Part shown: positions 46,672-63,549 of the stretch, piece by piece | How the letters are laid out: each line of letters opens with the position of its first letter | How positions within the stretch are numbered: position 1 is the stretch's first letter | NCBI GenBank assembly: GCA_963575745.1 | Contig: CAUYUJ010014604.1 | Span: 94,087-158,086, forward strand | Direction of reading: 5' to 3' | Source: Prorocentrum cordatum | Lineage: Eukaryota; Sar; Dinophyceae; Prorocentrales; Prorocentraceae | Length of the DNA stretch: 64,000 nucleotides | The notes under the pieces: generated by a model | The model's database searches: none | Seen by the model: only the letters and a program-made list of their open reading frames with translations | Told to the model about the DNA's origin: nothing | Made by a program: the position numbers and the translations under genes

Positions 46672-46677
46672 CTTGGA

Positions 46678-46961: not shown

Positions 46962-48210
46962 TGGTAGCGGAGCTGGCTACACTCTCGTGTGGCTGGCTCT
47001 CGCTCTGATTCCTGTAATCCACGGCACAACTTGGTGGACTACTACTACGGTGGAATACCATGTTGCGCCGGCTCTGCGAGGAGCGGAGCCAGTCCGCGAT
47101 CGAGCTAGCGGGGCAACCCGCGAACTCGAGACGCTCTCTCCTACTTCACTGCGCTACTTCACTCCCGACTTCCACCAGATGCCAATCGGCAACTCGATCG
47201 AGAACGTGGTCACCCTGCGGGGCTACCCGCAGCGGGGCCACCTGCATCCCGTGCCAGTCAGGCGCCTCACGGCTACTACGCCAGAGCCTGACAAACCACA
47301 GCCTAAACCAATCACCGAAGCCGAAATGCACATGCATTGGATCAAGATAACTATATTCGGCATTCTGTGGGTAATAATGGGATGTGCTGTGGGATACATG
47401 CGGCAGGGGATGGACGACACGCGTACTACTGGCCCTTCATGGGACCCTGCCGGTACTACGCCTTTTCGCGAATACGTTCGCGAAGTACATGCATGGTTAA
47501 ACGTAACGAGTGGCAATATGACACCACCACAACAAGCTGCAGCACTACAACGAGGCCTTCAAGGTCTGGCTCGTCGTATCGCCATGCAGGTCCCCTCCCA
47601 GATCATCAATTATGGTGTAACTGTCAATGGACAGCCAACGGATGCAGTAACATATATACTGTACTTACTGAGCACCAAATTTGAAAATCTGGAAGATGAG
47701 CGCCAGCTCGACTCTGGCACTGCCCTTATCGACTTCCGCGTCGAAAGGGGCGGGCGAATCGACTCAGTATTAGCTCGATTCGAGATGGCCCGTGACGAGG
47801 CTAACTCTGTTGGCTTTGTCATCCCCAACTTTCAGATCCTAACGCTGATTCTCTTCAGAGCGTTAGGCGTTGGCGCGTCACGAGCCCAACACCTGCTTGA
47901 GCCCTTCAATCATCAGATGCCCCGAACACAAGCAGACTATGACAGGCTGCTGACCAGAATGAGGAACTACGGACATGTTGCCGAGCGCTCTCCTGGCAAC
48001 ATAGCGGGTATCTTCACAGGGCACCACTCACATGCAGGTGTCTACGCCACGACTGCGGGGTCACCCGCTGGTCCTGGCGAGCCAAATCCCTGGGCTGACC
48101 CAGCCGATATGCCCAACGAGGCCACTGCCCTCTTAGGGCAGACCGGCCAGGCATCGGCAGAGGCAGCGGAGGCGAACGCCTGGTCGAACTACACGCCGGG
48201 CGCCGCCTAA
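46828..48210 (+). CDS. copia-1 Gag-like protein, starting inside the LTR
   Basis: 460 codons from the ATG at 46,828 (MPILSFTPDP) to TAA at 48,208. The first 44 residues are encoded by the LTR, so the PBS is inside the coding sequence. Hydrophobic segments at about residues 50-66 (YTLVWLALALIPVI) and 172-191 (ITIFGILWVIMGCAVGYM) look membrane-inserting. The C-terminal half (NMTPPQQAAALQRGLQGLAR, TKFENLEDERQ, QILTLILFRALG, TQADYDRLLTRMRNYG) is helical and Gag-like by position; I do not see a diagnostic motif. After TAA the same frame stays open to 48,702. A fusion of membrane segments to Gag is unusual for copia. Confidence 0.75.
   Translation: MPILSFTPDPMLRLALLLMRYEPKPGIWQRLKRNTYLSLPACFRLGSGAGYTLVWLALALIPVIHGTTWWTTTTVEYHVAPALRGAEPVRDRASGATRELETLSPTSLRYFTPDFHQMPIGNSIENVVTLRGYPQRGHLHPVPVRRLTATTPEPDKPQPKPITEAEMHMHWIKITIFGILWVIMGCAVGYMRQGMDDTRTTGPSWDPAGTTPFREYVREVHAWLNVTSGNMTPPQQAAALQRGLQGLARRIAMQVPSQIINYGVTVNGQPTDAVTYILYLLSTKFENLEDERQLDSGTALIDFRVERGGRIDSVLARFEMARDEANSVGFVIPNFQILTLILFRALGVGASRAQHLLEPFNHQMPRTQADYDRLLTRMRNYGHVAERSPGNIAGIFTGHHSHAGVYATTAGSPAGPGEPNPWADPADMPNEATALLGQTGQASAEAAEANAWSNYTPGAA
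46962..46973 (+). promoter_or_regulatory. copia-1 primer-binding site
   Basis: TGGTAGCGGAGC directly after the 5' LTR, close to the PBS of elements primed by initiator-Met tRNA and sharing TGGTAGCGG with copia-2. Confidence 0.75.
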
Positions 48211-48702
48211 ACTGCAAGCCCGCCCTCGGGCACAACCCTCTGGGGCCAAGCGGAGTCATCCGCTCAAGGGTCTCAGCCACCCTCACCGTTTGAATCTGGC
48301 ACTGACACAGATACCTCATCTGACGATGAGCACAATGGAATAGTCTCTGCTGGTAATGACTACCCAGCGGATGACACTCACCTCTCTGAACAACAAAGAG
48401 CGGAAGCCGCCTTTATGGCTTATCGCAAATCAAAACGCCGTTGGAGGCGCTTTATGCAGAAACCAGTCAGAAAAGTGAGACGTGCAGTACGCCGACATTT
48501 CAAACGATATGGAAAGGGTCGTGGCAAAGGGGGTCGCAGACGCCGTATGCATGGTAGGGGTATTACTGCTTTCCTCACGTCCTTAACTGATATGGCTTTT
48601 GAAGAAGTTCTTATCGGAGGCAAAGGTCGGGGTCACAGGCGGACCTCCGGTAAGGGAAAGGGCGGAGGGGCAACCCTAGGGACGCTTCTGGCAATACTAT
48701 GA
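48211..48702 (+). CDS. copia-1 basic extension downstream of the Gag stop
   Basis: The Gag frame continues after TAA for 163 codons. First comes an acidic, Ser/Thr-rich stretch (TDTDTSSDDEHNG), then, from Met at 48,415, a strongly basic region (KSKRRWRRFMQ, RRHFKRYGKGRGKGGRRRR) that looks nucleic-acid-binding, ending at TGA 48,700. It may be made by stop readthrough as a Gag extension, as a separate ORF from 48,415, or it may be a once-continuous Gag broken by one mutation. It overlaps the next ORF by a few bases. Confidence 0.55.
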   Translation, partial: TASPPSGTTLWGQAESSAQGSQPPSPFESGTDTDTSSDDEHNGIVSAGNDYPADDTHLSEQQRAEAAFMAYRKSKRRWRRFMQKPVRKVRRAVRRHFKRYGKGRGKGGRRRRMHGRGITAFLTSLTDMAFEEVLIGGKGRGHRRTSGKGKGGGATLGTLLAIL

Positions 48703-48703
48703 A

Positions 48704-50299
48704 GTGTCATACGGTCGCTCGCGCCCTCCCCAACCCCGGCACAACTACAGCCCTCCCCGACCCACACCTCAGCCGGCAGACAAAATACGGCGTGCCCCGT
48801 CACACCAGGCGCAGAGCCAGAACATACAACACGCGGACGCCCTGTACCAATGCGGTAGCACAGAGCATTTGCGCGATCAATGCCCGAAGGGGAAAGGAAA
48901 GGGATCCGTACATTTGGCTCAAAATTCTTTTATGGATGACATAGATAACATTGACTACGAGTTTTACGTCAATCCAGAAGCGGCTCCCGCCGCGGGCTCC
49001 TCCACGTATTACGTGATGGCCCGCTACGCTGAAGCAACTGTAGCCCTGGAAGTCTACGCAGTGACCCTCTTCGACGAGTTCCACGGCTGGGACGAGGTCG
49101 ACGAGGTCGCGTACAATGCTTGGTTCGGTCTTCCAGCGGGGCCACCCGCCGGCGACGAGGTCTCCGAAGCCGAGACCGTCCCGGCAACAGAGGAAGAACT
49201 CACCGCCGTGCTGGGCCCGCAAGTGATTGGCATGCCGTTGCTGCCAAATCCTTCGTGGGCTGGTTCGGAGGCGGGAGACGCCGATGACGAAATGCGGGGC
49301 CATCCCGCGTATTCCGACTCCGAAGAAGCCGAAGAAGATTATAAGGACATGCTCCAAGAGCAGGTCTCAGAAGCAATCCGACTCCTGAGTGCGCCAGCAC
49401 ATCAGCAGATAACCATGAACGAACTGCTGTCACACCCAGGAGCTGCACGTCTACGTCCATACTTGGATTCGGACATGTCAACATCTCAGATGCTGACAGC
49501 ACTCCAAGCTCTAGCGGGGTCACCCGCCGAAGAAACGCCAGACGCAACAGCGGGGCCACCCGCTTGGTCTATGGATGTATTCATGCAAGGTTGTGATCAA
49601 ATGGACATTAACGACCTCGCGATGGAGCAGTTAAACGACATCGGGTACTTCAGAAGCCCGTATCAAAACGTGTTCATGGTCCAGGACAGCTCAGAGGACT
49701 CGGAGGACATGCGCTACGCTAAGAGGGACAGACGACCGTCGCCTCCCCGAGACTCAGAGCATGACGATCAAAGGCCAATGGCACGCGGTAGTGCGTCAGC
49801 GGGGCCAGCCCGCAGAAGGAGCCGTTCAGCTCCCAGACGCCCTACACATGATGAGTCGGGCTATCCATACAGTACTGAGCACTCCGTCGGAGTATCCGCT
49901 CAGCATGTGCCGAATTGGTACATCAAATGGTACCCCGGCTACTCGATGGACACGCTTCGCCACTGGTATTCTAAGGAGTACTGCACTAAAAGGGACGAAA
50001 CTGGCGCGATAATACGTACCAAGGGTGGCAAGACCAAGACGCCAGAGGCTTGGGACAAAAGGGCTAAGAAACAGGAGACCATCAACGATCGCAAGACATA
50101 CAGGAAACAAGTATGTCAGTGCGAGCCCTTCAAAGGTCACATGCGCAGGTGTCCGATGGACCGCCCCTCCAGGAGCCCTCATCACGGTGAGACCCCGTGG
50201 AATTGGTCTCATGGAGATGACGCTGGCAACGTCCATGATCCTAATATGAGGTCCCTGGAGGAGAAAAGCGCATCACCGAAGCCGATCGTGTCCCTATGA
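48704..50299 (+). CDS. copia-1 acidic ORF with degenerate zinc knuckle
   Basis: About 530 codons, open in the frame next to the previous one; the true start is unclear (GTG at 48,704; the ATG at 48,699 is in another frame), so a frameshift from the upstream ORF is likely. Near the N-terminus YQCGSTEHLRDQC keeps Cys-x4-His-x4-Cys of a CCHC knuckle but lacks the first Cys. The middle is acidic and hairpin-rich (Ala-Gly-Pro-Pro-Ala linkers). The C-terminus has CQCEPFKGHMRRC, a second possible Cys/His site. The stop overlaps the next ATG as ATGA. Function unknown; a nucleocapsid-like role is plausible. Confidence 0.6.
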   Translation: MSYGRSRPPQPRHNYSPPRPTPQPADKIRRAPSHQAQSQNIQHADALYQCGSTEHLRDQCPKGKGKGSVHLAQNSFMDDIDNIDYEFYVNPEAAPAAGSSTYYVMARYAEATVALEVYAVTLFDEFHGWDEVDEVAYNAWFGLPAGPPAGDEVSEAETVPATEEELTAVLGPQVIGMPLLPNPSWAGSEAGDADDEMRGHPAYSDSEEAEEDYKDMLQEQVSEAIRLLSAPAHQQITMNELLSHPGAARLRPYLDSDMSTSQMLTALQALAGSPAEETPDATAGPPAWSMDVFMQGCDQMDINDLAMEQLNDIGYFRSPYQNVFMVQDSSEDSEDMRYAKRDRRPSPPRDSEHDDQRPMARGSASAGPARRRSRSAPRRPTHDESGYPYSTEHSVGVSAQHVPNWYIKWYPGYSMDTLRHWYSKEYCTKRDETGAIIRTKGGKTKTPEAWDKRAKKQETINDRKTYRKQVCQCEPFKGHMRRCPMDRPSRSPHHGETPWNWSHGDDAGNVHDPNMRSLEEKSASPKPIVSL

Positions 50300-52950
50300 C
50301 CGAAGAGGTGGCCAACATCGTCAGGGAAAATTGGGTACAGCTTCCCAATGACCATCGCCTCAAGGAATGGAACCGCCGATTCCATAAAGAGGCGGGGTCA
50401 CCCGCTGGATCCATTAAAGAAGCGGGGTCACCCGCAGACGCGGCGCCAGCCGCTGGGTCCGCGGACGACGAGTGGATAGCTGTTGCATCTGCTGCCGGGT
50501 CCGCCGCCGGCACTGACCACACCGAACTGAATGAAGAATGGGCGGCGGAAGACGGCTCAGAGAATCCATTCCCTGATGGATGCGCCTGCTGGTGCTACAG
50601 CTCTTCGGCGCAGAAGTGGTTTTGCACGAGGGTAATCTACCGCCATGAGAATGGCAAGTACAAGCTGGCCATAAAAGGTACTGCCGACATCGACCAGATG
50701 AGGCAGATCATCCATGATCATGGCCAGCCAGAAGGCCCTCCTAGAGACCCTCCTGGTCCACAACCGGGCAAGGGCAGCAGACCACCTCCAAGACCTGAAG
50801 CCGACTCCTCGTCTTCACCGACTCCTGCGAAAAGGCACCCGTCCAAGAGCCCCGAAGGCACACAGGGGCGGGCGAAGGCCAGAGGGATCGCCAAGACGGA
50901 CGACCCTGAGCCGGTGGATCCTCCCGGTCTGTCCGTGACGGAGAGGAGGAAGGCTTTTGCTGGACCATCGACCCCGATGCCACCGGCGACCCAAGGCGAT
51001 GTCAAGGACGAAGTTCGCGACAAGCCTCAGGCAGCTTTCCGAGGTGACTGGACTCCAACTCTGCATCAGCCGCGCCTTGCACCACGACCAGGTTCGGCAC
51101 GAATGAAAGCACAGCCGAAGCCCGAAGCTGGGATGAGGTCGGCGCGGGCAGAAGCAGCCGCCAAGGCTAAGGAGGGCAAGGGCTCTGCGGGGCCACCCGC
51201 TAAAGCGGCGCCAGCTGCAGCAGCGGGGACACCCGCAGAAGGCACTCTCTCAAGAGAAGAACGCTTCAAAGTCCTCAAAGAATTTGGCGACCGACAGAAA
51301 CTAACCGATGATGCAGTTGCTGACCAAGGTCACCCGAACCCTGGCGCGGAGTCATCCGCTGGAGCTGCCTCGTCAGCCGCAGGCTCTGCTGGGCCACCCG
51401 TTAAAGCGCCGCCAGCTGCATTAGCGGGGCCACCCGCACACGGGCAGCCAGTAATGTCTGTTCTTAGGAACATCCCTCTGGGAGCCATCGAATACTGGCA
51501 AGGCATTGAAGGCAAAGGCCCGAAGCGCACCATAAACCCACGAGTCACTCCAGACGATACTGACCGATACGAGGTCATTAATTGTCCTGATCGTCGTAAC
51601 TTCGAGTGCCGCAACGACTGGGAACGTGAACAACAAACCGTGGGAAATATGTTGCGAGACAGGCCGCCACTACGCGTTGCGCAGCATAAAGCAGAGCTCC
51701 TGAAGGTCATGGAGAGGTTCGGCATGGATCCGACTTTGCCGCGTGAAGGGCAGATGACCAAGGTGTCAATATGGTTTTCTACAGCCCTACGCCACAGTCC
51801 ATATTGGAAGGACGGATTCAGCCGACACTTCGAAAAGATCAGCACTTTCGATCCATACGATGGCTGGGTTGTCGTTGACGATCTGCTGACAAACTGGACT
51901 GAAAATGATCAGTGGAAAGGCTATCGTGAAATGCACGAGGTGCTGATCAAGGGCAGGCCCCACACGTCATACGTGTATTGGGTGCTGCTAAACTGCTGTG
52001 AGATGATTGACCATCACGGCATGCAGAAGGGCAGGCTCCAGATGAAGTGCGTTGAGGACAGCATGCTGCTGCCTCCCAGGTTTCGACCAAAGGCACGCAG
52101 GCCACAGTACTTCATCAGAGCCACGAACGGCCACAGCAGTCCAGGCATCCACTGTCCCGAGTCGCTGTACAAGCCGATCACAACATGGATGAAAGAACCA
52201 GACGACCCAGTATATTTCATCCACGGGACACAGTGGGAGTATGTCAAGGACATTCTTGCTAATGGCCTTTCATGCCTCGCACAGGACAACCCTAAGAGGA
52301 AGGGGGGGCGCCAATTTGTGCACGGCTGCCCCTACCTCCCGGGCGACCCGAGGATTCAATCGGGCATCCGTCCTGACTCGGAGGTGCTCATATTCTGCAG
52401 CATCAACAAGATGCTGTCCAGTGGCTTCTCCCTATGGAGATCAGCAAATGACATAGTCATGACACGAGGCCACGACGGACGTATACCGCCCGATCATATC
52501 CTCCAGATTGTGAGCATTGCGAAATATCGGGTCGGCGAAGCCTGGAGCAATCCGCTGGCTTATGACAAGTCGCGGAGGCGGGGCCAACCCGCGGACAGGA
52601 TTCGCACCGATGACTACCTGCCACTTAAAATGTGTGACAGAACTCTGGGTGTAATGGAAGATCACGCCATGTACCTAAAGGGCTGGACTAAGACGGACGG
52701 TCGTCCATTCAATTTGGTCATGACCGAGCAAGATGTTGCTCCACGACCGTACGACACACAGACAGTCCTCATGATGAATGCCCAGGAGGACGAGGTCATG
52801 CCTGAAGCGGGGCCACCCGCAGGTGCGGGGACACCCGCGGTAGACACCTCGGACGGTTCATGGCAACAAGTGGTCACACCAGTAGCAACGGTAGCATCTC
52901 CTTGGAGGCCGGCCAGCAGTCATGGGTCCAGGCCCTCAACAGCCATTTGA
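50296..52950 (+). CDS. copia-1 ORF with Tpt1/KptA RNA 2'-phosphotransferase domain
   Basis: 884 codons from ATG 50,296. Residues about 95-130 (CACWCYSSSAQKWFCTRVIY) could be a small SH3-like barrel, then hairpin-rich linkers to about 390. Residues about 480-740 are a complete Tpt1/KptA domain. The winged-helix part has STALRHSP and FDPYDGWVVVDDLL; the ADP-ribosyltransferase-like lobe has FIRATNGHS, FIHGTQWEYVKDILANGLSC, LPGDPRIQSGIR and SLWRSANDIVMTRG. The R-H-R-R tetrad falls at R499, H500, R608 and R692. Tpt1 removes 2'-phosphate from spliced RNA using NAD+, yielding ADP-ribose 1'',2''-cyclic phosphate. In a retroelement it might repair or process ligated RNA, but that is inference. The stop overlaps the RING ORF by 91 nt. 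Confidence 0.92.
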   Translation: MTEEVANIVRENWVQLPNDHRLKEWNRRFHKEAGSPAGSIKEAGSPADAAPAAGSADDEWIAVASAAGSAAGTDHTELNEEWAAEDGSENPFPDGCACWCYSSSAQKWFCTRVIYRHENGKYKLAIKGTADIDQMRQIIHDHGQPEGPPRDPPGPQPGKGSRPPPRPEADSSSSPTPAKRHPSKSPEGTQGRAKARGIAKTDDPEPVDPPGLSVTERRKAFAGPSTPMPPATQGDVKDEVRDKPQAAFRGDWTPTLHQPRLAPRPGSARMKAQPKPEAGMRSARAEAAAKAKEGKGSAGPPAKAAPAAAAGTPAEGTLSREERFKVLKEFGDRQKLTDDAVADQGHPNPGAESSAGAASSAAGSAGPPVKAPPAALAGPPAHGQPVMSVLRNIPLGAIEYWQGIEGKGPKRTINPRVTPDDTDRYEVINCPDRRNFECRNDWEREQQTVGNMLRDRPPLRVAQHKAELLKVMERFGMDPTLPREGQMTKVSIWFSTALRHSPYWKDGFSRHFEKISTFDPYDGWVVVDDLLTNWTENDQWKGYREMHEVLIKGRPHTSYVYWVLLNCCEMIDHHGMQKGRLQMKCVEDSMLLPPRFRPKARRPQYFIRATNGHSSPGIHCPESLYKPITTWMKEPDDPVYFIHGTQWEYVKDILANGLSCLAQDNPKRKGGRQFVHGCPYLPGDPRIQSGIRPDSEVLIFCSINKMLSSGFSLWRSANDIVMTRGHDGRIPPDHILQIVSIAKYRVGEAWSNPLAYDKSRRRGQPADRIRTDDYLPLKMCDRTLGVMEDHAMYLKGWTKTDGRPFNLVMTEQDVAPRPYDTQTVLMMNAQEDEVMPEAGPPAGAGTPAVDTSDGSWQQVVTPVATVASPWRPASSHGSRPSTAI

Positions 52951-55106
52951 CATCAGCCGACGTCTCTGGACTAACCGATCAGCTATACCGTGCTGACCCG
53001 TGGGCGGTGCATACAGGTATCCAAGACGCACAGCAGAGGAACCTGCGCCCTCCTGCGGGGCCACCAGGCGTCCTAGGACCACAACCACAACGCCCTCCGC
53101 AGCAAGCTGGAGGTGCGAGGTTTGTCCCTATGGGCGGTTCAGATGGTGGCTCGCCGTTTCGGACTCCGCCGTCTGAAACGAGCGAGAACAGCTTGTGGCA
53201 AAGACTCCAGGCGATTCGCGGGAATCCGGCGCTCGCAGCAGCACTCCAGGCAACCACTCCCTTTGGCACTCCGAGGGGTAGTGAAGGAGGAGTGGCTGCG
53301 GGGACACCCGCCGAGCGAACGCCTGCGGAGTCACTCGCACATGCGGGGCCACCCGCTGACGGACAGCAAGGTTCAGACTACGAACGTCGGGCAGCCAACT
53401 TGAGAGCACAGGCTACCTTTCTGCAGCAACAAGCTGATAGAGTGCCCAGCCTGTTGCGGAACCGCAACATAGATGTTACGAATCATGGCGACTTTCGGCC
53501 TCTCTGGAGCTGGACTTCTGAAGATGCTCCAAATGCTGATCCCACGAATCCATATCGACAGGTGTTTATTCCAGGAATAGCATCACACCCAATATATGGA
53601 TGGGACAATCATGGACCAGTAGAGGCACAGGCCATGGACGCGCCGATGTACCCGGAGTACTACGCGCAGATGAATAACACTCCTATGATTGCGGGGCCAC
53701 CTGCGAACGAATACACTCGGAATCTTGCCAATGAGATGTTCCGTTTGCAGTTTACACGAGCGGTCGATGCGCAGTCTATGCCGCACTACGCCTACATGCC
53801 CACGCCGACGGACCCCGAGACCGTGGTTCAGCCAGCTGGTCTCGCGGTGCCAGCCGCTATGGGCAGCATGCCAGACTACATCCGCGACGTGCACGACACG
53901 CAGCAGGCGATACTGGCATCTAGGCAGCAGGCTCGGGACAACGCCAGGCTGCGCCAACAACGCGCGATTCAGAGAAGGATCGAGCGTGAAAACCAAGCGG
54001 GGACACCCGCAGACGCGGGGCCACCCGCTGAACGGACAGATAGACGGCCGCCACCGACGCCATATCGGGAGGGCGAAACCACTTTCGAGCGCCAAGCTCG
54101 GACTCGCCCAGACGTGCCTGCTCCAGTCATTTCAGACTACAACTTCACACAGTGCCCAATCTGTATGGACACCTACGAGATGGGCACCACAGTGTGGAGA
54201 CTGGCGTGTGGGCACTTCTTCCACGATATATGCTGGGATCGTGTTGCACAGCAGCACGTCCGCAATCAGCGGCCAGGTGCGCCGAACGAGGCCCCCTGCG
54301 CTGTATGTCGTGGGCCGGGCATAATTACAGCGCATTTCCCGTATGCTGGACAGCGCGACGCTGAGTCGGAACAAGCGCGCCAGCAGGAAAGGTACGTGGC
54401 AGATGCCCGGGAAATGCGTCGGCTACGAGAAGCAGTGGAGGCACTAGAGGCTCGAGCCGCACACTCGGCGGAGCCATCCGCACGTGCCCCAGCTGCGCAG
54501 GCATCCCCCTGGCCAGCGCCAGAGCAAGGCATCCAGATGCCAATCCTGCCTACGCTTCGAGCACAGGAGCCCCCAGCAGCGGGGCCACCCGCCGAAGCGG
54601 CTCCCGCCGCCAAAGCGGGGCCACCCGCAATTGGACCTCCGAATCCAGGATTCCTGAGGGCAATGGAGGCCAACATCAGGCGGAGTGGCAGGAGCGGAGG
54701 CGGTACGCGCAGGCCGACTGGATCATCCAGGACCTCACGTGTGGCAAGCCCGGTCAGCGCTAGGAGCCGGGCAAGCGCTGAGAGCGCGGAGGCAGCCCAG
54801 TTCCACACCACATTCATGATCGATACAAAAGGGCTGACCTATGCACGTGACGACACGGACACGCTGCCGCCAGGAGGTGAATGGATGTCCACACTCTCTG
54901 CGAATTATTGGGTTCTTGAACAGGAACCAATTACCGTAGAGGAGCGCCGCCAATATGAGCAGATGTGGTGCACCGAGTTAACCATGAGCCAATGGGTGCT
55001 TGAACAACGCCTGTTGAAAGGCACACTCGGTTCACAGATTACGTACCACACCGATGACCATGGTACGATGGCTCTGGCAGCGCGGAATGGGACATTCTTT
55101 CCCTGA
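52860..55106 (+). CDS. copia-1 ORF with RING-H2 finger
   Basis: 748 codons from ATG 52,860. The N-terminal 400 residues are disordered or Gln/Ala/Pro-rich, with hairpin-derived Ala-Gly-x-Pro-Ala linkers and a conserved-looking stretch around NPYRQVFIPGIASHPIYGW. The RING-H2 is C432-x2-C435-x14-C450-x-H452-x2-H455-x2-C458-x21-C480-x2-C483, complete and correctly spaced; RING fingers usually recruit E2 enzymes for ubiquitin transfer. A coiled-coil-like segment follows (about 500-545, REMRRLREAVEALEARA). Ends at TGA 55,104. It overlaps the protease ORF by 53 nt in another frame. Targets are unknown. Confidence 0.9.
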   Translation: MATSGHTSSNGSISLEAGQQSWVQALNSHLTSADVSGLTDQLYRADPWAVHTGIQDAQQRNLRPPAGPPGVLGPQPQRPPQQAGGARFVPMGGSDGGSPFRTPPSETSENSLWQRLQAIRGNPALAAALQATTPFGTPRGSEGGVAAGTPAERTPAESLAHAGPPADGQQGSDYERRAANLRAQATFLQQQADRVPSLLRNRNIDVTNHGDFRPLWSWTSEDAPNADPTNPYRQVFIPGIASHPIYGWDNHGPVEAQAMDAPMYPEYYAQMNNTPMIAGPPANEYTRNLANEMFRLQFTRAVDAQSMPHYAYMPTPTDPETVVQPAGLAVPAAMGSMPDYIRDVHDTQQAILASRQQARDNARLRQQRAIQRRIERENQAGTPADAGPPAERTDRRPPPTPYREGETTFERQARTRPDVPAPVISDYNFTQCPICMDTYEMGTTVWRLACGHFFHDICWDRVAQQHVRNQRPGAPNEAPCAVCRGPGIITAHFPYAGQRDAESEQARQQERYVADAREMRRLREAVEALEARAAHSAEPSARAPAAQASPWPAPEQGIQMPILPTLRAQEPPAAGPPAEAAPAAKAGPPAIGPPNPGFLRAMEANIRRSGRSGGGTRRPTGSSRTSRVASPVSARSRASAESAEAAQFHTTFMIDTKGLTYARDDTDTLPPGGEWMSTLSANYWVLEQEPITVEERRQYEQMWCTELTMSQWVLEQRLLKGTLGSQITYHTDDHGTMALAARNGTFFP

Positions 55107-55959
55107 CGAAGACGGACTGCCCTGCATCTCGTTCATGCTAGACATTGGCTCCAACGTGAACATCATTGGAGCCAATACGGCGCGAACCTTCCAGGAGGCT
55201 ATGGCCAGGTACAATCACAGACCTGCCATATGCACCCTGAGCAAGACCCTCTACATTAACGGTGTCGGTGAGGGTGCTGCGATATGTCGGAAAATGGGCA
55301 ACTTCAAGATCGGGGTGCAATACGCCAATGAGGCAAGCCCCCGTATCGAGGAGTATGCCTCCAACATCGCAGAAGGCTCGGGTGCCAACCTCCCGGCCAT
55401 CTGGGGCCTTGGTGCCATGGAAGCACGTGACACGATCATCGTGCTGAAGCCAGGCTACCAGAAGGTTATCTTCCCCAGCGGTGATTACACTCTGAAGCTG
55501 GGGAGGGGCGCCAAGGTCCTGAGGGCGAAGAAAACTCCCTCAGGACATCTAGCCATTCCCTGCGGTTTGTATGACGGGGCTAAAAGCCAGACGGTCACGA
55601 ACACCTTCACAATCCGCAGCAGTCGAGATGGCTACACCGAGACGGAGAACGAAGAGGACCCCGTCAATGCGGGGTCACCCGCCGGTGTAGGTGCGGGGCC
55701 ACCCGCCGGAGTAAGTGCGGGGCCACCCGCCGAGACCACAGCGGGGCAACCCGCGACGGGACAGTCCATGACCGTCACGACTGATACGTACATTGTCGAG
55801 CCGTATCTCGACAAGCAGCTCCTGGAAGACACGACCCGTTTGATCGTGGACAGGACGCTGAACAGCTGGTGGGAGGGCCAACAGTGTCCCGAAGGGACCT
55901 GGCCACATATGAAGGATGCCCTGAAGTCAAGATATTCTGGGCAGTCCAGGAGGCGGTGA
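55054..55959 (+). CDS. copia-1 retropepsin (aspartic protease)
   Basis: 301 codons from ATG 55,054. The catalytic motif D30-I-G-S in FMLDIGSNVNIIGAN replaces the common D-[ST]-G-[AS] middle residue with Ile. A second motif, LPAIWGLGAME (about residues 115-125), fits the Ile-Leu-Gly flap-side motif, and GHLAIPCG (about 165-172) is typical of copia proteases. The C-terminus carries four hairpin units in about 90 bases. It would mature the Gag and Pol products. The start could instead be reached by frameshifting from the RING ORF. Confidence 0.85.
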   Translation: MTMVRWLWQRGMGHSFPDEDGLPCISFMLDIGSNVNIIGANTARTFQEAMARYNHRPAICTLSKTLYINGVGEGAAICRKMGNFKIGVQYANEASPRIEEYASNIAEGSGANLPAIWGLGAMEARDTIIVLKPGYQKVIFPSGDYTLKLGRGAKVLRAKKTPSGHLAIPCGLYDGAKSQTVTNTFTIRSSRDGYTETENEEDPVNAGSPAGVGAGPPAGVSAGPPAETTAGQPATGQSMTVTTDTYIVEPYLDKQLLEDTTRLIVDRTLNSWWEGQQCPEGTWPHMKDALKSRYSGQSRRR

Positions 55960-56162
55960 ATAAATGGACGCCTGAGAACCAAGCGGGGCCACCCGCGACA
56001 CCGCCACCACCACCAAGCTACACGGGCGGAGGTTCGTCGGACTCTGCGGGGCCAACCCGCGTGGAGATCGTGAGCGTAGCCGCACCAGCGACTCCTGCGG
56101 AGCCATCCGCTAACAGCATGCCCCCGAGTCAGACGGCAACGTGGTCACACGACCGCCGCTGA
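55869..56162 (+). CDS. copia-1 protease-pol linker frame
   Basis: A Pro/Ala-rich frame (EVKIFWAVQEAVNKWTPENQ then AGPPATPPPPPSY) in the same phase as pol, ended by TGA at 56,160. The frame reopens at once and runs on into pol, so one stop separates them. Its first part continues the protease text in a shifted frame. It carries three hairpins. Confidence 0.5.
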   Translation: MGGPTVSRRDLATYEGCPEVKIFWAVQEAVNKWTPENQAGPPATPPPPPSYTGGGSSDSAGPTRVEIVSVAAPATPAEPSANSMPPSQTATWSHDRR

Positions 56163-59100
56163 CGGGGGCAGGCGGGCGCGCCGGCGGCGCTCGCTTGCGA
56201 AGAGAAGCCGAATACCGGCCTCCTCGCGACATACGTTGGCCGCGCTGAGGCCCGAGAAGAAAAATATCATTCAAAATGTCTCGTCATCGAAGATATTCGC
56301 ACAGCTTGCGCTGAACTCCGAACCCGTGGATATATATGCGACCGGATTACCCATAATGAGGTAATGACTTCAACTGGAACACAGTATTTGGGAAATTTGT
56401 TGGCAGGAGACTACAATATGTTGTGGGTGGCCACACCCTCTGATTGGTACGTTCGTACTCCAGGAAAGAGGGCGGGACCACATTATCAACGTATACAAAA
56501 TCTCCTGATCAAAGCGCGTGCTCTGAGAATGCAGATAGTTATCCTGGGGCCACCCGGGTATTTCTGGAAACAGGGTCCGATCAAAGATGTTATCGAAGAT
56601 TTGAAGCTAAGCATTATACGAATGAGACTCTGTCATTTCGGTATCAAGTTTGACCGATCCAGTAAATATCCCAGTGGTTCTTATATACAAGTTGCTACAT
56701 CTTGTCCTCATATACCGATAAACTTATGGAAATGTACTTGTGGATCACACAAGGAGCATGATTTGGATTGGTATGGCCAAGATCAGCAACGTGCCGAGTT
56801 TCGGTATAAAACTTTGGCTATTATTATTGCACGCTTCCTTGATCAACTCGATAAAGCCAACATGATCAGGAATGAGCGGAGTGCGGTACACCTCAGTGTG
56901 TGTACACGCGTTGACAAAAAGGTCAGACACTACGTCCAATGTCCACAAAAGGGCCCTCAATGGGACCATGTGGTTCGTAGGGTCACGACCGACCTGGACA
57001 CGAACAAGATCGTTCAAGATATCAGAATCCAGGATCAGCCAACTGGGTACAATTATGTAGCTCCATTACCTGATGGGGTTACAAACATCAGTACTCGGCT
57101 ATACTGGGAGCCTCCGGCTCCAGTTCTTCATGGCAATGGTGAGTCGCGAAGGCCACGCCCAAAGCGTGTGACGATCGTCGACGACGATCGATCTCCTCCC
57201 CCTTCGATTGAGCGTTGCCAAACGCGACCCACCAACAACCTTCCTGAAATTCCGCCATTTCCTGACTTTACAGCGGATTCCTCCGCAGCGGATCTCTCCG
57301 CGGAAACTGCGTTGCCCACTGATGCCAGGATAAAACAGAAAGAAAAGCAGAAAGCTGACAAAGAAGCCGGCATCAAACCGAAGAAAGTCCCGAAGAAAGT
57401 GGAAGACGGTAACGACGACTGTGGAGAGGACCTCAAAGGGCTTGACTGCTCCACATATTTCAACGACGTTCCTCTTGACGACTCGGACTCGGACAGCGAA
57501 TCAGAGGACATCTTCATGATGTTACCGGCGGGGCAACCCGCTGACTCACATGCTGATGTCTTCTCGATAGTCCAGTCATTATGCTACGGCAGAAACAATC
57601 AAGTGGACATGCTTGAATTATGTGGGGGCAAGGGTGGTATATCCATATTAGCCTTCAAGAGGGGACTCTCGTCAGGCGGGAACCTTGACAAGATATCTAT
57701 GGTTGACCTTGGAAACTCGGAAGTACAAAGAGCAGTCCTCCACTACCTCAAGACTTGCTTTGTCAAGATCACGATTCTGCAGCCAAGCTGCAGAACTACT
57801 GGACTTCCCTCCTATTTCAACGCACAGGTCAATCATGATACGTGGCTTAAACACCACAAAGAGGACCTGCCTCACATCACGTTCTGTGGAACAGTCGCTC
57901 TATTACAAGACGACCTAAGACGTTTCTTTCTCAGGGAACAACCAATGGGCACGTGGGTGGATGAGATCCAGCCATGGAAGGAACTGGCACAACGCAAGGT
58001 CACTTGCCAAACGATTATTGATCAGTGCACGACTGGTCTCAAAGATTCATTTGGACAATACATCCGCAAGCCAACACAGATGATGGCAAACAAAGAAGAG
58101 TTGTTGGCACCTTTCAGAGGCAAGCGTTGTCCAGGTAATCATGTGCACGCCAATGCTTGTAATAAAGAACTAGCAAGGGCGGCACAGTATACCTACAGAA
58201 TGCAGTCACTGATCGTTGATGCGGTGCAAATCGCCAAAGACCTGTTTGCTTACGGTCGCGATCCATTCGCGAATCGTGAACGCAGCTATGCGTTCGTAAC
58301 AAACAGTGCTGGCTACGACTTGGACGACCCAACAATCCGGAGACACCCAAACGGAGAAATCTGGCGACCACCACCTGGCGGTCTTGGGTGCCCTGGCTGT
58401 GTGGACAACAACTACAAGCAATCACCAAAGCACAGCAGGGATCCGAAGATGTGTCGGTGGTATGATGTTGAACCGTATTACTGGGACTGTCCAAGCTGTA
58501 AGAAGGAATATCAGAAGAGCAATCCTCACCACACCAAGATATCTGGCCAATGCAGATTCGCCGAAAAATGGAAGCTGCCAGATAACTTTGGCCAGCCGCG
58601 CCCGGCGGGGCAAGCCGCTCCTGCGGCGCCAGCCGCGGAAGCGGCTCCAGCCGCAGAAGCGGCGCCAGCCGCAAAAGCGGCGCCGGCCGCGAGAGCGCGC
58701 ATACGCGCGCCTAGGCCGCCACGGCCCGGTGAGGGCGATCCAACCGCAGGCGCCAGCAGCCATGACATCACCAGAGCCGACGGGGCTAATGGTGGCAACA
58801 GTGGCGCTGGCAGCTCTGACGATCACCGTAGACTGCCACAAGTTGCAGCAAGGCGCGGACGCATGGAGGGAGGAGATCCTCCACCACCGCCGCAGCCTCA
58901 AGCAGAGCCGAGGCCAAGGCCAAGGCTCCCTGATTGGACTCGCTTCGACGTTCAGCTCAGCCTCCAAAACCTGCGCAGCTTCGACCCAGCTGTAGTGCAG
59001 CGAGAACTCCGCAAACTCCACCTGAGATGGTTTCATGCCAAGGAGCCAAAAATGCGGATGATTCTAACCAAGGTTGGTCTGGGTGAAACCCGTTTGAGTC

Positions 59101-62063
59101 TGATCAAAGGCATTTGTGACTCGTGTAGAGAATGTCGAGCCTGGGACAAACCAGGCAACACGGTGATGCCTTCTGTGTCACTGCCAGGACGTTTCAACGA
59201 GGAAGTCGAATGTGATCTTTTCTTTTACAAACAGGAACATATTGTTTTTCACATCATCGACCGTTGTATTCGCTGGGCAGCTGGCACAGAGATTCCTGAT
59301 AAAGCCATGCATACTGTTCTCGATGCCTATCATACGACTTGGATGCAACATGGCCCTGCTAAAATCTTATACTCCGATGGGGAAGGAGCACTGAATAATG
59401 ATACAGCAAAGGCCATCCTTAAGGCTAAGGGAACAGAGCTTCGTATTCGAGCGCGTGGCCAACACGCTACAACTATCGAAGCTAGGAACGGCATCCTGCG
59501 ACACCTCTTACACGTGATGGGAGAAGAATTGAATAGATTAAATATTCCTCTCAATTTCACTCGTCTCTTACATGAAGCCTTGTTTGCCAGCAACGCATTT
59601 ACCTTCTACAATGAAGTGTCTCCGTACAATGCGCTGTATGGCAGACAACCAGCTATGCTTCCCGATTTCCCTGTCTTGGATCATGATCAGTCCGCTGAAT
59701 CATCAGATCACTCAAGGGAGGAAACAATCAGGAGGGTTAGTCTGGAGGCAATCACGCAGGCCACTGCGGTTGCCAAGACGAACAGGGCTCCCCGTACGAA
59801 GACTACTGCTACGGGTGAATTTCACTACGAAGAGGGAGATCTCGTGGACTATCATCGCCCGACCACCACGAAAGACGACTGGGGTGGATGGAGTGGTCCA
59901 TACCCGGTCATCCGCAACGAACCTGACCGAGGCCAGGTCATCGTGAAGGTCGGCAGTCGCGAAGTGCGAGTACAGTATCCTGACACACGACACACGCTGT
60001 ACATCGAAGCACTTATGGTCCGCGAGATAGGATCGGACAATACGGCCCTTCGGACAGTATTGGCCTTTATTGCCGGTCTGCCAGCGGGGAAACCCGCCAT
60101 GACTTTCGGATATCTACCAGCGAAACAGGGTCGGCTGCAGATGACTGCTGCGAGCCGACTTTCGCCTAAGGTGCACTTGGCTCTTCAGTACCTCATACGC
60201 AACTACTTTCGTATTGAAAACGTTGTTGCTGTACGACTTGCCAAGAGCCTGACGAAGTTGCCTGCTGCACCCTATGCAGACAGCTGTACACTAGTGCACT
60301 ATGATAATGATGTGACCCCTGGTTTTCATTACTATGAAGCTGATGGCACTGCCTTGAACATCTATGACATCACAGGATCTACACACTCACGCATCATCCA
60401 GTGTCTTAAATCCAGGAAGCCGTCTGCTGGATTTGACCAAGACCTCACTAAGTTTGAGGAACTCGCTGATGGTCCACCTCCAAGCGAATCACCTCCAGCA
60501 GCTGCTCCTGAGGAGCCCCCTACGGATAACGATGGTCGGCTCCCGACCATCATAGAGGAAACAGAAGAAGATCTGGATGTTTTTGTCTTGAAGTCGTGGT
60601 ATGCTGAACTGATGGATGACAGAACACTCCTTGAAGCTGACACAGAGGAAGTCATGCATACAGTTCCCACATACATGACAGACACACAGTGTGTGTTAGT
60701 CTCTACGACCTGTGAAGATGTGCAAGGCCACTTGCCGGAGCGGGGTCACCCGCCAGGATACGACATGGACACTTCTTACTACGTTCCTTTATGCTCCACG
60801 GATCCGGATAGCAAATATGATCTGGACTCCGATGAGCACGGGAAGTACATCGAGCTCTGCTTCACTGCAGACATGTCCAAAGTCGTCCTGTCCGAGCAGC
60901 AACACCGATTGTTGGATGACAGCAGCGTCACAACTATGCGAGTATACGTTAGCGCTGCCTCCAAACGTGCCGTGGTCGTCAAGGAAGACGATCTACTCAC
61001 GAAGGCCGACGTCCAAGCAAATCCGGTCAAAGTTTCCAAAGCCCTCTACACAGAATTGAAGACTTGGCTTGACAACAAATGCTTCCAGATGACTGACTTA
61101 AGCAAGGCGTCTAACATCATGACGTCACGCTACGTATACAAATGGAAGTTTGTCAAGAACGAAAAGGGCGAAATGGAAAGGACGATCAGGTTACGCTTGG
61201 TACTCCGTGGCTTCATGGACCTTGAAGCCTTTGATGTCGAAACCTTCTCTGGCACGGCAAGGAGGTCAAGCCAGAGACTGCTCGCAAGTTCTGCTGCATG
61301 CAACAAAGCTTGGATCATCGCTTCCCTGGACATCAACATGGCTTTCTTGAAGGGACTGACCTATGGCGAGCTCGCCGCGGCAACGGGCGAGAAAGAGCGT
61401 GTGGTGTGCTTCACACTACCACCTGGGTCAGCAGCTGTCCTTCGCACACTGCCAGGCTTTGAGTCATATGACGAATCAAAGCATTGTCTCCGGTGTCTGA
61501 AACCGGGGACGGGCACGAAGGATGCTCCCAGGGCATTCTCGCTGAAGCTCAGGTCCATCACTAGGAGCTTTGGGCTACAGCCGACTTCATACGACGAAGA
61601 GTTCGAGATGAGCCCAAACCTCTTGACAACCAAGCACGTTGAAGACATCAATATGACTGGGAAGGAAGAGGCTATTGACAAGTATGTCAAGTGTGTTGAA
61701 GATACGTTTGGGAAGTGCAAACTGAACAAGCACACATACACAAACTGTGCCGTTCGGTACAACAAGACCGATGATGGGAGCGTCACTCTCGATCAGGACG
61801 AATACATCAAACAGCTTCGTCCTATCACACATCCAGAACTCACAGGAGCTGATCCTGAGAGCAAAGCGACAAAGACGATTTCTGATATGTTCGTCAGTCT
61901 TCGTGGCGCTCTAGCCTATGCGTTGATCGCGCAGGTATGGCTGATGGTCTATGTTGTCTCACTACAACGTATCCAGGAACCGACAAACATCCAGGTACGA
62001 CGACTAAACGCGGTTACCAGAAACTACAGGCAGGTCCGAAGAAGATCGTGTATCAAGCTATGA
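56163..62063 (+). CDS. copia-1 Pol: methyltransferase-like segments, integrase, RT
   Basis: Open from 56,163; the first ATG is 56,364 (1,899 codons, numbering from it). The N-terminal part (DYNMLWVATPSDWYVRTPGK, VILGPPGYFW, LCHFGIKFD, PSGSYIQVATSCPH) and residues about 412-500 (E418-L-C-G-G-K-G-G; P474-S-C) look methyltransferase-like. Integrase: H886-x4-H891, C918-x2-C921, then D951, D1005, E1039 (Asp-x33-Glu), and an SH3-like tail GDLVDYHRPTTTKDDWGGWS. RVT_2 spans about 1,570-1,860: RYVYKWKFVKNEKGE, D1656 in SLDINMAFLKG, CLKPGTGTKDAPRAFSL, and the active box H-V-E-D (1758-1761), where Asp is expected in place of E1760. The frame is lost near 62,023 before RNase H. Catalysis by this copy is doubtful. 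Confidence 0.92.
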   Translation, partial: RGQAGAPAALACEEKPNTGLLATYVGRAEAREEKYHSKCLVIEDIRTACAELRTRGYICDRITHNEVMTSTGTQYLGNLLAGDYNMLWVATPSDWYVRTPGKRAGPHYQRIQNLLIKARALRMQIVILGPPGYFWKQGPIKDVIEDLKLSIIRMRLCHFGIKFDRSSKYPSGSYIQVATSCPHIPINLWKCTCGSHKEHDLDWYGQDQQRAEFRYKTLAIIIARFLDQLDKANMIRNERSAVHLSVCTRVDKKVRHYVQCPQKGPQWDHVVRRVTTDLDTNKIVQDIRIQDQPTGYNYVAPLPDGVTNISTRLYWEPPAPVLHGNGESRRPRPKRVTIVDDDRSPPPSIERCQTRPTNNLPEIPPFPDFTADSSAADLSAETALPTDARIKQKEKQKADKEAGIKPKKVPKKVEDGNDDCGEDLKGLDCSTYFNDVPLDDSDSDSESEDIFMMLPAGQPADSHADVFSIVQSLCYGRNNQVDMLELCGGKGGISILAFKRGLSSGGNLDKISMVDLGNSEVQRAVLHYLKTCFVKITILQPSCRTTGLPSYFNAQVNHDTWLKHHKEDLPHITFCGTVALLQDDLRRFFLREQPMGTWVDEIQPWKELAQRKVTCQTIIDQCTTGLKDSFGQYIRKPTQMMANKEELLAPFRGKRCPGNHVHANACNKELARAAQYTYRMQSLIVDAVQIAKDLFAYGRDPFANRERSYAFVTNSAGYDLDDPTIRRHPNGEIWRPPPGGLGCPGCVDNNYKQSPKHSRDPKMCRWYDVEPYYWDCPSCKKEYQKSNPHHTKISGQCRFAEKWKLPDNFGQPRPAGQAAPAAPAAEAAPAAEAAPAAKAAPAARARIRAPRPPRPGEGDPTAGASSHDITRADGANGGNSGAGSSDDHRRLPQVAARRGRMEGGDPPPPPQPQAEPRPRPRLPDWTRFDVQLSLQNLRSFDPAVVQRELRKLHLRWFHAKEPKMRMILTKVGLGETRLSLIKGICDSCRECRAWDKPGNTVMPSVSLPGRFNEEVECDLFFYKQEHIVFHIIDRCIRWAAGTEIPDKAMHTVLDAYHTTWMQHGPAKILYSDGEGALNNDTAKAILKAKGTELRIRARGQHATTIEARNGILRHLLHVMGEELNRLNIPLNFTRLLHEALFASNAFTFYNEVSPYNALYGRQPAMLPDFPVLDHDQSAESSDHSREETIRRVSLEAITQATAVAKTNRAPRTKTTATGEFHYEEGDLVDYHRPTTTKDDWGGWSGPYPVIRNEPDRGQVIVKVGSREVRVQYPDTRHTLYIEALMVREIGSDNTALRTVLAFIAGLPAGKPAMTFGYLPAKQGRLQMTAASRLSPKVHLALQYLIRNYFRIENVVAVRLAKSLTKLPAAPYADSCTLVHYDNDVTPGFHYYEADGTALNIYDITGSTHSRIIQCLKSRKPSAGFDQDLTKFEELADGPPPSESPPAAAPEEPPTDNDGRLPTIIEETEEDLDVFVLKSWYAELMDDRTLLEADTEEVMHTVPTYMTDTQCVLVSTTCEDVQGHLPERGHPPGYDMDTSYYVPLCSTDPDSKYDLDSDEHGKYIELCFTADMSKVVLSEQQHRLLDDSSVTTMRVYVSAASKRAVVVKEDDLLTKADVQANPVKVSKALYTELKTWLDNKCFQMTDLSKASNIMTSRYVYKWKFVKNEKGEMERTIRLRLVLRGFMDLEAFDVETFSGTARRSSQRLLASSAACNKAWIIASLDINMAFLKGLTYGELAAATGEKERVVCFTLPPGSAAVLRTLPGFESYDESKHCLRCLKPGTGTKDAPRAFSLKLRSITRSFGLQPTSYDEEFEMSPNLLTTKHVEDINMTGKEEAIDKYVKCVEDTFGKCKLNKHTYTNCAVRYNKTDDGSVTLDQDEYIKQLRPITHPELTGADPESKATKTISDMFVSLRGALAYALIAQVWLMVYVVSLQRIQEPTNIQVRRLNAVTRNYRQVRRRSCIKL

Positions 62064-62761
62064 CCCCAACAGGAGAAGTCGACCTGCATAGCGATTCTGG
62101 CTATCGTCGTCTCAACGGAGATGAAGACGACGAAGTCAAAGGCTATGGTATCCGCGGGGCTAACCTGCTGAGGCGTGGCCACACGCAAGCGGGGAAACCC
62201 GTCGTGCACCTGGTGGACGCATACTGCAAGTCTCATCGACTGCAGGTGCGTTCGAGCTACTCTGCGGAAACACTGGCAGCAGCCCACAACTTGGAAGACT
62301 GCTACCCGACCATTGTAACGCTCCACGAGCTACACTCGGGACCATTGACCCCCACACAGTTAAAGAACATATTGGAAATGGGTGGTCTATGTATCAAAGT
62401 CACTCTGACTATTGATGCCGAGTCTGTCTTCAAGTCTTTGTCTAGCAAAGATCTGAAGAAGCCCACAGAATGTACTCTGCTTGGGCACATCAGCTGGATC
62501 CGCCAGATGATGGAACGCGGAATCGTGGAAAGCGTCCAATGGTGTGACACGCGGGATATGACTGCCGATGGTCATACCAAAGGTAGTATTGACCGCGCGT
62601 TGCTCCTACAAGTAATGGCCGGCCAGCAATCCTTCAAGCACGAGCTGAAGAAACATACGCCGTATAGGGCGGGCAGGTCGTCTCAGGACGGCCCTGCCTC
62701 CCGAGCCAGCGGGGAAACCCGCGGGCAGGTGCGCTTTAGTAGCGAGGAAACTCGCCGGTAG
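61937..62761 (+). CDS. copia-1 RNase H domain (out of frame with Pol)
   Basis: The meaningful part begins about 62,024 (KLQAGPKKIVYQAMTP) and continues Pol one base out of phase, consistent with a single-base loss or a frameshift site near 62,023. Catalytic residues are D in LHSDSGYRR (62,093), E in SYSAETLAAAH (62,267), D in LTIDAESVFKSL (62,414) and D in MTADGHTKG (62,567). All four acidic residues of copia RNase H are present. Ends at TAG 62,759. The tail contains the GNNA hairpins at 62,709 and 62,742. Confidence 0.88.
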   Translation: MADGLCCLTTTYPGTDKHPGTTTKRGYQKLQAGPKKIVYQAMTPTGEVDLHSDSGYRRLNGDEDDEVKGYGIRGANLLRRGHTQAGKPVVHLVDAYCKSHRLQVRSSYSAETLAAAHNLEDCYPTIVTLHELHSGPLTPTQLKNILEMGGLCIKVTLTIDAESVFKSLSSKDLKKPTECTLLGHISWIRQMMERGIVESVQWCDTRDMTADGHTKGSIDRALLLQVMAGQQSFKHELKKHTPYRAGRSSQDGPASRASGETRGQVRFSSEETRR

Positions 62762-62865
62762 CGAGGCTACTCGCGCGCCCTTTCCTTGTAGGCAGCCGCT
62801 GCTGCTTAGCACTGTTTTTTCCGCATAATGTAGAAGTGCGGTACCTGCTCGTCTCCTCCCCCTCC
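62762..62865 (+). other. copia-1 3' untranslated region
   Basis: Starts within a hairpin (GCGAG-GCTA-CTCGC, 62,761-62,774). Just before the 3' LTR the + strand is CTCCTCCCCCTCC, pyrimidine-rich, where a purine tract is expected. Confidence 0.75.
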
Positions 62866-62867
62866 GA

Positions 62868-63151: not shown

Positions 63152-63157
63152 CTTGGA

Positions 63158-63545: not shown

Positions 63546-63549
63546 AATT

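Follow-up and report, generated by a model that had tools for sequence, protein, structure and literature searches.

Short GNNA-loop hairpins along a copia-like retrotransposon of Prorocentrum cordatum are selected as RNA structure and may be packaging sites for its own Gag

A stretch of 64,000 nt from the 4.13-Gb genome of the dinoflagellate Prorocentrum cordatum, here called the window, contains between positions 46,677 and 63,151 a single copia-like long terminal repeat (LTR) retrotransposon of about 16 kb. It has near-identical LTRs (285 nt, one mismatch), the target-site duplication CTTGG at both ends and a reverse transcriptase of the RVT_2 type (PF07727, E 2.8e-9). An array of tiny hairpins lies within this one element, and its genomic RNA would carry some 40 to 50 short stem-loops of the form GC-nn[n]-GNNA-[n']n'n'-GC, one of them past the last open reading frame (ORF). 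The array is the outcome of selection on RNA structure and is neither a peptide repeat nor mainly a product of micro-palindrome insertion; that such selection acts in the element we hardly doubt. Judging from sequence, the stem-loops may be dispersed recognition or packaging sites for the element's own Gag nucleocapsid, a reading to which we assign a probability of about one half.

Perfect hairpins with a GCGG stem and a loop of three to six nucleotides occur 47 times in the 64 kb, 46 of them within 47,083-62,722 and one at 9,702. A first-pass annotation of the window, made from the letters alone, had claimed about 47 such hairpins, and the class is in fact wider: the same loop type sits on the further stems GCGTT, GCAAG (two), GCGTG (two, one with a 5-nt loop), GCGAG (two) and ACGCA. 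Counted with 5-nt loops and related stems there are 47 copies, distributed over phases 0, 1 and 2 as 34, 4 and 8, with one outside any long frame, and the spacing averages one hairpin per 300-400 nt. The occurrence in all three phases and beyond the last ORF had been described correctly, as had the changes at stem pair 5 (G-C, A-T, C-G) and pair 4 (A-T, in the GCGAG copies at 62,742 and 62,761) and the GNNA loop in most copies. When perfect hairpins with 5 bp and a 4-nt loop are considered, the loop is GNNA in 46 of 83 on the sense strand of the element's internal region compared with 5 of 83 on the antisense strand. In the rest of the window, which together with the genome pattern listing served as host control, the corresponding counts were 0 of 93 and 7 of 94, so that the suggested comparison with host density favours the element as far as that sample goes. 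Loops in the window family are mostly GNCA, with C in third position in 29 of the 35 GNNA loops on GCGG stems. As read from the DNA letters, the element has what is expected of dispersed packaging signals, namely many stem-loops with a common loop motif.

Synonymous-codon shuffles of the coding tiles (500) retained 1.05 ± 1.04 GC-type GNNA hairpins (maximum 5) compared with 40 in the real sequence, which settles the codon-matched control that the first-pass annotation had called for. Codons of the AG.PA motif are nearly fixed at the stem (GCG 23/24, GGG 22/24, CCC 21/24), while the last alanine codon, the third base of which falls outside the stem, is spread over four codons. A peptide explanation is therefore excluded by codon fixation that is limited to the stem and by the loss of hairpins under synonymous shuffling. 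Pairing also varies in concert: GCnnnGnnAnnnGC selects 59 window sites, 32 of them distinct, whose three free pairs are complementary in 80 of 96 cells; the covariation score is 0.491 against 0.139 after shuffling (0/500 shuffles), where the rows are paralogous sites, many of them alike, so that shuffle counts are not probabilities. Note that neither the E-values nor the shuffles given here model descent.

The hairpin pattern led to three loci, L053, L054 and L055, that represent a related element (family 2); with the window copy it shares 46-49% identity in the longer Gag alignments, 47-65% in pol, 27-31% in parts of ORF3 and ORF4 and about 40% in ORF5. Each of the 10-kb pieces carries 28-29 GNNA hairpins on the sense strand and none on the antisense strand. 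The loops are mostly GNRA (GAAA, GCAA, GAGA), while the purine in third position is mostly missing from the window family. Sites of the form GCnnG-GNNA-CnnGC were picked by GCnnGGnnACnnGC without requiring complementarity at nn. In the 5' parts, nn proved complementary at 25 of 27, 25 of 28 and 26 of 30 sites (4.4-6.0 expected), with 9-10 different arms and no antisense match to the pattern; for two copies the 3' parts were scored as well, giving 9 of 11 and 8 of 11. Alignment A2 (L053+L089) comprises 38 sites, 25 of them distinct. Its 97.6% of paired cells includes three pairs fixed by the choice of sites, and the informative part is the 47 of 50 distinct cells that pair at the two free positions. 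Each of these two pairs occurs in all four Watson-Crick forms (pair 3: GC, UA, AU, CG and one GU; pair 4: GC, CG, AU, UA and two UG), and the covariation score is 0.513 compared with 0.098 after shuffling (0/500). Loops vary in a further way: on the reverse strand of locus L057, 7 of 26 hairpins with 4-nt loops have a G...G loop, as if the last A had changed to G, a change also seen at 60,740 in 1 of 31 copies, at one L054 site and in 2 of the 100 AGKPA sites listed. Locus L056 carries GCGGG-GCTA-CCCGC and near variants at multiples of about 33 nt on its reverse strand (4,297-4,525).

Hairpins are largely kept in place. Among 26 sites defined in L053 alone and then compared in L054, 16 are identical, four differ in the loop only, three show compensatory changes, one has a G-U pair and two are broken. 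When hairpins are defined in a third copy, their divergence is 3-5 fold below that of the flanks (1.5% versus 7.6% for copies C1 and C2, 2.5% versus 8.0% for L054 and L055). Family 2 has 40 hairpins per copy, of which 23 and 25 could be mapped onto the window family by protein alignment; 5 and 8 of these lie at most 12 nt from a hairpin of the first family, with 1.4 and 1.7 expected by chance. Eleven of the 13 near-coincident hairpins are in exact register, and as the two copies belong to the same family they represent about 6-7 distinct places. At several of them the register is kept while stem, loop and sometimes peptide differ (Table 1). The shared TGAGC-GNCA-GCTCA is uninformative, because the stem is identical in both families and the Gag protein is conserved there. 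The AGKPA site at 60,084 has 1,531 genome matches from at least two families; in the first 100, the two synonymous third-codon positions are A-T in 51, G-C in 46, A-C in two and G-T in one, a split mainly between two families that may reflect one switch. Thirty close copies of the 3' part of pol plus C1 are too similar for covariation to show. Hairpins had been described as absent from the integrase stretch, which does not hold: those at 59,453 and 59,755 lie there and are nearly unchanged among 31 copies. Conservation in evolution, as expected of dispersed packaging signals, is thus found, with positions only partly common between families. Covariation across related copies is seen in A2, at the window sites and in the cross-family register, and the earlier view of a nucleic-acid unit rather than a peptide repeat agrees with shuffles, window control and covariation alike.

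The pattern GCGGGGNNACCCGC was counted 30,980 times in the genome compared with 3,390 for the reversed control. GNNA in one orientation accounts for 30,980 of 63,186 GCGGG-N4-CCCGC sites (49%), while random loops of even composition would give 12.5%. The looser pattern GCNNGGNNACNNGCC had 150,098 matches against 54,471 for its control. Among 100 places listed for GCNNGGNNACNNGCC, the free pairs are complementary in 9 of 9 inside C1 and in 8 of 91 elsewhere; leaving aside two local clusters, the latter figure becomes 4 of 81, near the chance level of 1 in 16. At locus L091 (G000:C1:161000-162400), GCCGG-GNNA/G-CCGGC hairpins cluster in a stretch of about 500 nt that apparently lies outside this element.

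Relatives of pol comprise 43 proteins, among them Skav204682 (source eukprot). Evidence from other genomes consists of protein sequences, so hairpins in their DNA are deduced from peptides. A peptide x-G-[N/D]-x, in which the choice of N or D itself fixes a GNRA-type loop, stands near the 60,740 site in 17 of 40 aligned relatives, all within P0001-P0020; by eye, none was counted in the alignment for P0005, P0009, P0011 and P0021-P0040. Fifteen of 20 such peptides could be encoded as a Watson-Crick hairpin compared with 5.4 after permutation within the site (0/20,000), and 6 of 11 distinct residue pairs are hairpin-compatible. P0012 has seven PGNR repeats; five read DPGNRI, which can be encoded as GATCCGG-GNAA-CCGGATC, and for the peptide HGNV a stem CACG-CGTG is likewise predicted in other dinoflagellate genomes. 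We rely more on the single aligned site at 60,740 than on general protein-only scans. P0044, named as a protein of a Myxococcales metagenome-assembled genome, appears to be a copy of the dinoflagellate element, and the contig is likely mis-binned; it keeps most hairpin peptides at the same places, has extra tandem copies and has lost one (AESSA at 51,346, now AESSE), partly judged by eye. Against three Prorocentrum cordatum proteins, pieces of ORF3 give matches of 98-100% that cover 13-14% of the query. The Prorocentrum cordatum proteins P0045, P0046 and P0047 contain an element-derived stretch with the identical junction HWYSK|VMERFGMDP relative to ORF2 and ORF3 of the window, which suggests spliced, exonised pieces of the element or a consistent effect of gene prediction. 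A further protein search added P0048-P0055. No relatives of the element were found in viral contigs by reverse transcriptase, alignment A1 or the paired-hairpin pattern, and none in genome contigs by alignment A1. Thirty-nine genome-contig stretches with the paired-hairpin pattern gave no tblastn match to the element ORFs at 1e-3 and were taken as unrelated.

We propose that each stem-loop would be recognised by a protein that the element itself encodes, most probably the Gag nucleocapsid, with the arginine-rich segment and the CCHC knuckle of Gag as the candidate binder. The proposal of Gag-read packaging sites builds on the presence of both parts in the two families (KRRWRRF, then KPVR and VRR, and the CCHC knuckle), on the loop difference and on the conserved hairpins. 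Selection keeps the fold and the loop as features of the RNA and leaves the stem letters partly free to covary. With many weak sites over the 16-kb RNA, Gag could distinguish this RNA from those of the host and of rival elements, condense it and package it, a role that dispersed packaging signals have in certain RNA viruses, and the GNCA and GNRA preferences may act as family-specific codes. Tandem duplication and the copying of segments that contain hairpins would create new sites, plausibly through template switching in reverse transcription. A bolder version, a family-specific RNA identity code of some 40-50 hairpins whose loops and stems co-evolve with the nucleocapsid, by which rival elements in one giant genome package only their own RNA and which spreads by template switching at hairpins, is conceivable but on balance rather unlikely. 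Among the roles suggested in the first-pass annotation, the best fit is an RNA packaging code or an array of protein-binding sites; a frameshift or readthrough aid fails to account for about 50 sites over the whole RNA.

Several observations weigh against recognition by Gag. The window-family loops are mostly GNCA rather than canonical GNRA, hairpin positions are only partly common to both families (5/23 and 8/25 within 12 nt), and broken hairpins occur in single copies. Fragmented related copies pair weakly, with 3 of 12 sites complementary in L052 (2.4 expected) and 7 of 12 in L057 (4.2 expected). The peptides at the 60,740 site were chosen by eye from the alignment, and their permutation has no model of descent. 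A scan for palindrome feasibility in 22 relatives and the window, with one shuffle each, gave no consistent enrichment (highest in P0012 at 7 bp with 17 versus 4; 16 versus 8 in P0010; 2 versus 10 in P0014). Applied to 138 filtered sites, the xG[ND]x test found the middle base complementary in 53 versus 37.7 (3/2,000) and all three pairs in 38 versus 24.7 (6/2,000); two of five control classes had raised values at the middle base too (93 versus 73.0, 181 versus 155.0), and none of the five when all three pairs were required.

The same RNA-level evidence (shuffles, family-2 pairing, covariation) would suit a different reader. This could be a protein of the host, or one of the element other than Gag, with control over export, stability, translation or localisation, comparable to the reading of boxB-type hairpins by arginine-rich peptides. 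The element encodes a domain resembling an RNA-modifying enzyme (PF01885) and a RING finger, and the sites extend through most of the transcript. We nevertheless consider this unlikely: the loop preference differs between families in one host genome, which is easier to explain with readers encoded by the elements, and a host reader has to be reconciled with a window that otherwise lacks sense-strand GNNA hairpins.

It is also conceivable that the hairpins are self-spreading micro-palindromes of little function, i.e., hot spots of template switching whose segments are copied and perfected by intrastrand switching. Copy C1 has, 2,817 nt apart, two occurrences of a 36-nt segment that spans a complete hairpin and the beginning of another, the second occurrence being an extra segment near 56,089; tandem hairpins were gained or lost at 50,415 and at 55,669-55,693, and the stem is nearly uniform in the window family. 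Set against this are the 9-10 different arms of family 2, mostly held at fixed places, the register and loop type retained across families at several sites, the low divergence relative to the flanks and the scarcity of exact repeats of at least 20 nt, of which each of six copies or part copies has only 0-2. A mobile palindrome would be present or absent as a whole unit at orthologous sites and occur at many host loci. This was not the pattern found, because sites are mostly conserved in place, gains and losses are tandem or segment copies inside the element, and sense GNNA loops number 0 of 93 elsewhere in the window. The first-pass suggestion of self-spreading is therefore quite improbable as the main process, although segment copying and tandem duplication do occur.

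Very unlikely, in our estimate, are hairpins acting at the DNA level, in complementary DNA or extruded DNA, and serving integrase or replication there. In DNA, too, GNNA loops are stable, and their restriction to one strand would make them readable at a single-stranded DNA stage; however, G-U is found among the few non-Watson-Crick sites (along with A-C and other misses), family 2 prefers GNRA, a hallmark of RNA, and for GCGGG-GCCA the RNA hairpin is predicted to be more stable by 1.5 kcal/mol on the sense strand. A repeat at the peptide level (AGPPA linkers) can be dismissed: one phase does hold 34 of the 46 in-frame copies and linkers tolerate such peptides, but it is ruled out by the synonymous shuffles (1.05 versus 40) and the window covariation (0.491 versus 0.139), and the codon bias confined to stem positions, the covariation in both families, the exchange of RGHP for LGDE at an aligned hairpin, the hairpins in other phases and the copy past the last ORF all speak against it.

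The hairpins and the other parts of the element are collected in Table 1. The putative primer-binding site resembles the 3' end of initiator tRNA-Met. The window copy is interrupted at several places, and in copy C2 one frame runs to 3,120 aa and the pol frame to 2,199 aa. No integrase match was obtained with Pfam in the window at E 0.01; PF00665 is present in the relatives P0024, P0026 and P0035. The Tpt1/KptA-like domain sits inside the retroelement polyprotein and shares it with the RING finger. Small repeats of the form GCGCTCTCGCG lie downstream of the element at 63,540-63,720.

Table 1 Hairpins and other features of the retroelement (window positions)
Feature	Position	Strand	Basis or remark
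GCGGA-GCCAG-TCCGC	47083..47097	+	pattern scan
GCGGG-GCAA-CCCGC	47108..47121	+	pattern scan
GCGGG-GCTA-CCCGC, 7 bp with flanks	47217..47230	+	in register with hairpin of family-2 copy L054
GCGGG-GTCA-CCCGC	48055..48068	+	pattern scan
GCGGA-GTCA-TCCGC	48250..48263	+	pattern scan
GCGGG-GCCA-CCCGC	49136..49149	+	peptide retained in relative P0044 (by eye)
GCGGG-GCCAT-CCCGC, phase 2	49294..49308	+	peptide retained in P0044 (by eye)
GCGGG-GTCA-CCCGC	49514..49527	+	pattern scan
GCGGG-GCCA-CCCGC	49550..49563	+	pattern scan
GCGGG-GCCAG-CCCGC	49799..49813	+	pattern scan
GCGGG-GTCA-CCCGC, two (50392, 50422)	50392..50435	+	third tandem copy in C2
GCGGC-GCCA-GCCGC	50440..50453	+	altered in C1 and C2
GCGGG stems at 51187 (GCCA) and 51223 (GACA)	51187..51236	+	pattern scan
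GCGGA-GTCA-TCCGC	51346..51359	+	lost in P0044 judging by peptide
GCGGG-GCCA-CCCGC	51424..51437	+	pattern scan
GCGGG-GCCAA-CCCGC, phase 2	52578..52592	+	pattern scan
Hairpins 52807, 52825	52807..52838	+	pattern scan
Hairpins 53298, 53343 and broken 53325	53298..53356	+	part of C1 counterpart recurs 2,817 nt downstream
Hairpins 53997, 54015	53997..54028	+	pattern scan
GCGGA-GCCA-TCCGC	54468..54481	+	pattern scan
Hairpins 54579, 54615	54579..54628	+	pattern scan
Four hairpins, 24-nt spacing (55669, 55693, 55717, 55741)	55669..55754	+	pattern scan
GCGGG-GCCA-CCCGC	55983..55996	+	outer pair altered in C1
GCGGG-GCCAA-CCCGC	56046..56060	+	pattern scan
GCGGA-GCCA-TCCGC	56097..56110	+	pattern scan
GCGTT-GCCA-AACGC, phase 2	57212..57225	+	pattern scan
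GCGGG-GCAA-CCCGC	57528..57541	+	pattern scan
GCAAG-GTCA-CTTGC, phase 1	57994..58007	+	pattern scan
GAACGCA-GCTA-TGCGTTC	58278..58295	+	in register with family-2 GCGCG-GAAA-CGCGC (L089) and GCGCG-GAGA-CGCGC (L090)
GCGGC-stem hairpins 58623, 58659	58623..58672	+	pattern scan
GCGTG-GCCAA-CACGC	59453..59467	+	unchanged in 28 of 31 aligned copies including window (1 changed, 2 gaps)
CGCAG-GCCA-CTGCG	59755..59768	+	unchanged in 30 of 31 aligned copies including window (1 gap)
GCGGG-GAAA-CCCGC (AGKPA)	60084..60097	+	GCAGG-GAAA-CCTGC in family 2, both changes synonymous
GCAAG-GCCA-CTTGC	60722..60735	+	family-2 copy L053+L089 aligns here
GCGGG-GTCA-CCCGC (RGHP)	60740..60753	+	aligned with GCTCG-GAGA-CGAGC (LGDE) of family-2 copy L054+L090
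GCGTG-GCCA-CACGC	62173..62186	+	in register with family-2 GCGAG-GAAA-CTCGC
GCGGG-GAAA-CCCGC	62709..62722	+	pattern scan and aligned copies
GCGAG-GAAA-CTCGC	62742..62755	+	pattern scan and aligned copies
GCGAG-GCTA-CTCGC	62761..62774	+	past last long ORF
Target-site duplication CTTGG	left 46672..46676, right 63152-63156	+	CTTGG common in flanks, weak alone
5' LTR, 285 nt	46677..46961	+	one mismatch to 3' LTR
3' LTR	62867..63151	+	paired with 5' LTR
Putative primer-binding site TGGTAGCGGAGCTGG	46962..46976	+	sequence
Gag-like ORF	46822..48207	+	interrupted in window copy, intact in other copies
Arginine-rich segment (KSKRRWRRFMQKPVRKVRRAVRR...)	48415..48560	+	similar segment in family 2
CCHC-type zinc knuckle	48836..48886	+	first Cys missing here, present in C1, C2 and family 2
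Tpt1/KptA-like RNA 2'-phosphotransferase domain	51859..52470	+	PF01885, E 2.6e-16
RING finger	54150..54311	+	PF13639, PF13923 and others
pol ORF	56364..62063	+	ORF list, Pfam and relatives
Copia-type reverse transcriptase	61074..61853	+	PF07727 RVT_2, E 2.8e-9

No hairpin arrays in retrotransposons were described, by title or abstract opening, in the open-licence literature searched. Multiple dispersed packaging-signal stem-loops are reported for single-stranded RNA viruses and hepatitis B virus (Twarock et al. 2018, PMC6281560). The element resembles these viruses, as portrayed there, in having many short stem-loops along the genomic RNA that share a loop motif and are compatible with coding; it differs in being an LTR retrotransposon with 40-50 near-uniform, perfect 5-bp stems kept in place, as read from the DNA. 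Dispersed packaging signals of viruses are debated on account of the small number and the degeneracy of their stem-loops. In the element the covarying hairpins number 40-50, are nearly uniform and can be seen by eye, and the related elements together have more than 1,000 genomic copies (1,531 at one pol site). The dispersed-signal idea can therefore be put to the test with comparative genomics and simple binding assays. If true, it would illustrate how, amid many relatives in a 4-Gb genome, a retrotransposon may keep its RNA identity, and the proline/alanine linkers of the element's proteins would be explained as by-products of RNA structure.

Retroviral packaging signals are a compact region near the 5' end, unlike the element's array, which extends over 16 kb. 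Selective packaging through RNA elements read by Gag, as proposed here, is familiar from retroviruses, for example from the purine loop of mouse mammary tumour virus (PMC8096270). The likeness to Rickettsia palindromic elements that the first-pass annotation had drawn is poor. Both lie inside coding frames, but the Rickettsia elements are far longer and inserted as units, whereas the hairpins described here measure 14 nt and are mostly kept in place. The boxB hairpin of lambdoid phages has a 5-bp stem and a GNRA-like loop and is read by an arginine-rich peptide; it is present at one or two sites, has a pentaloop and serves antitermination control. The element's hairpins share its 5-bp stem and, mostly in family 2, a GNRA-type loop, with Gag as the putative reader, and differ from it in their number of about 40-50 sites and in their mostly 4-nt loops.

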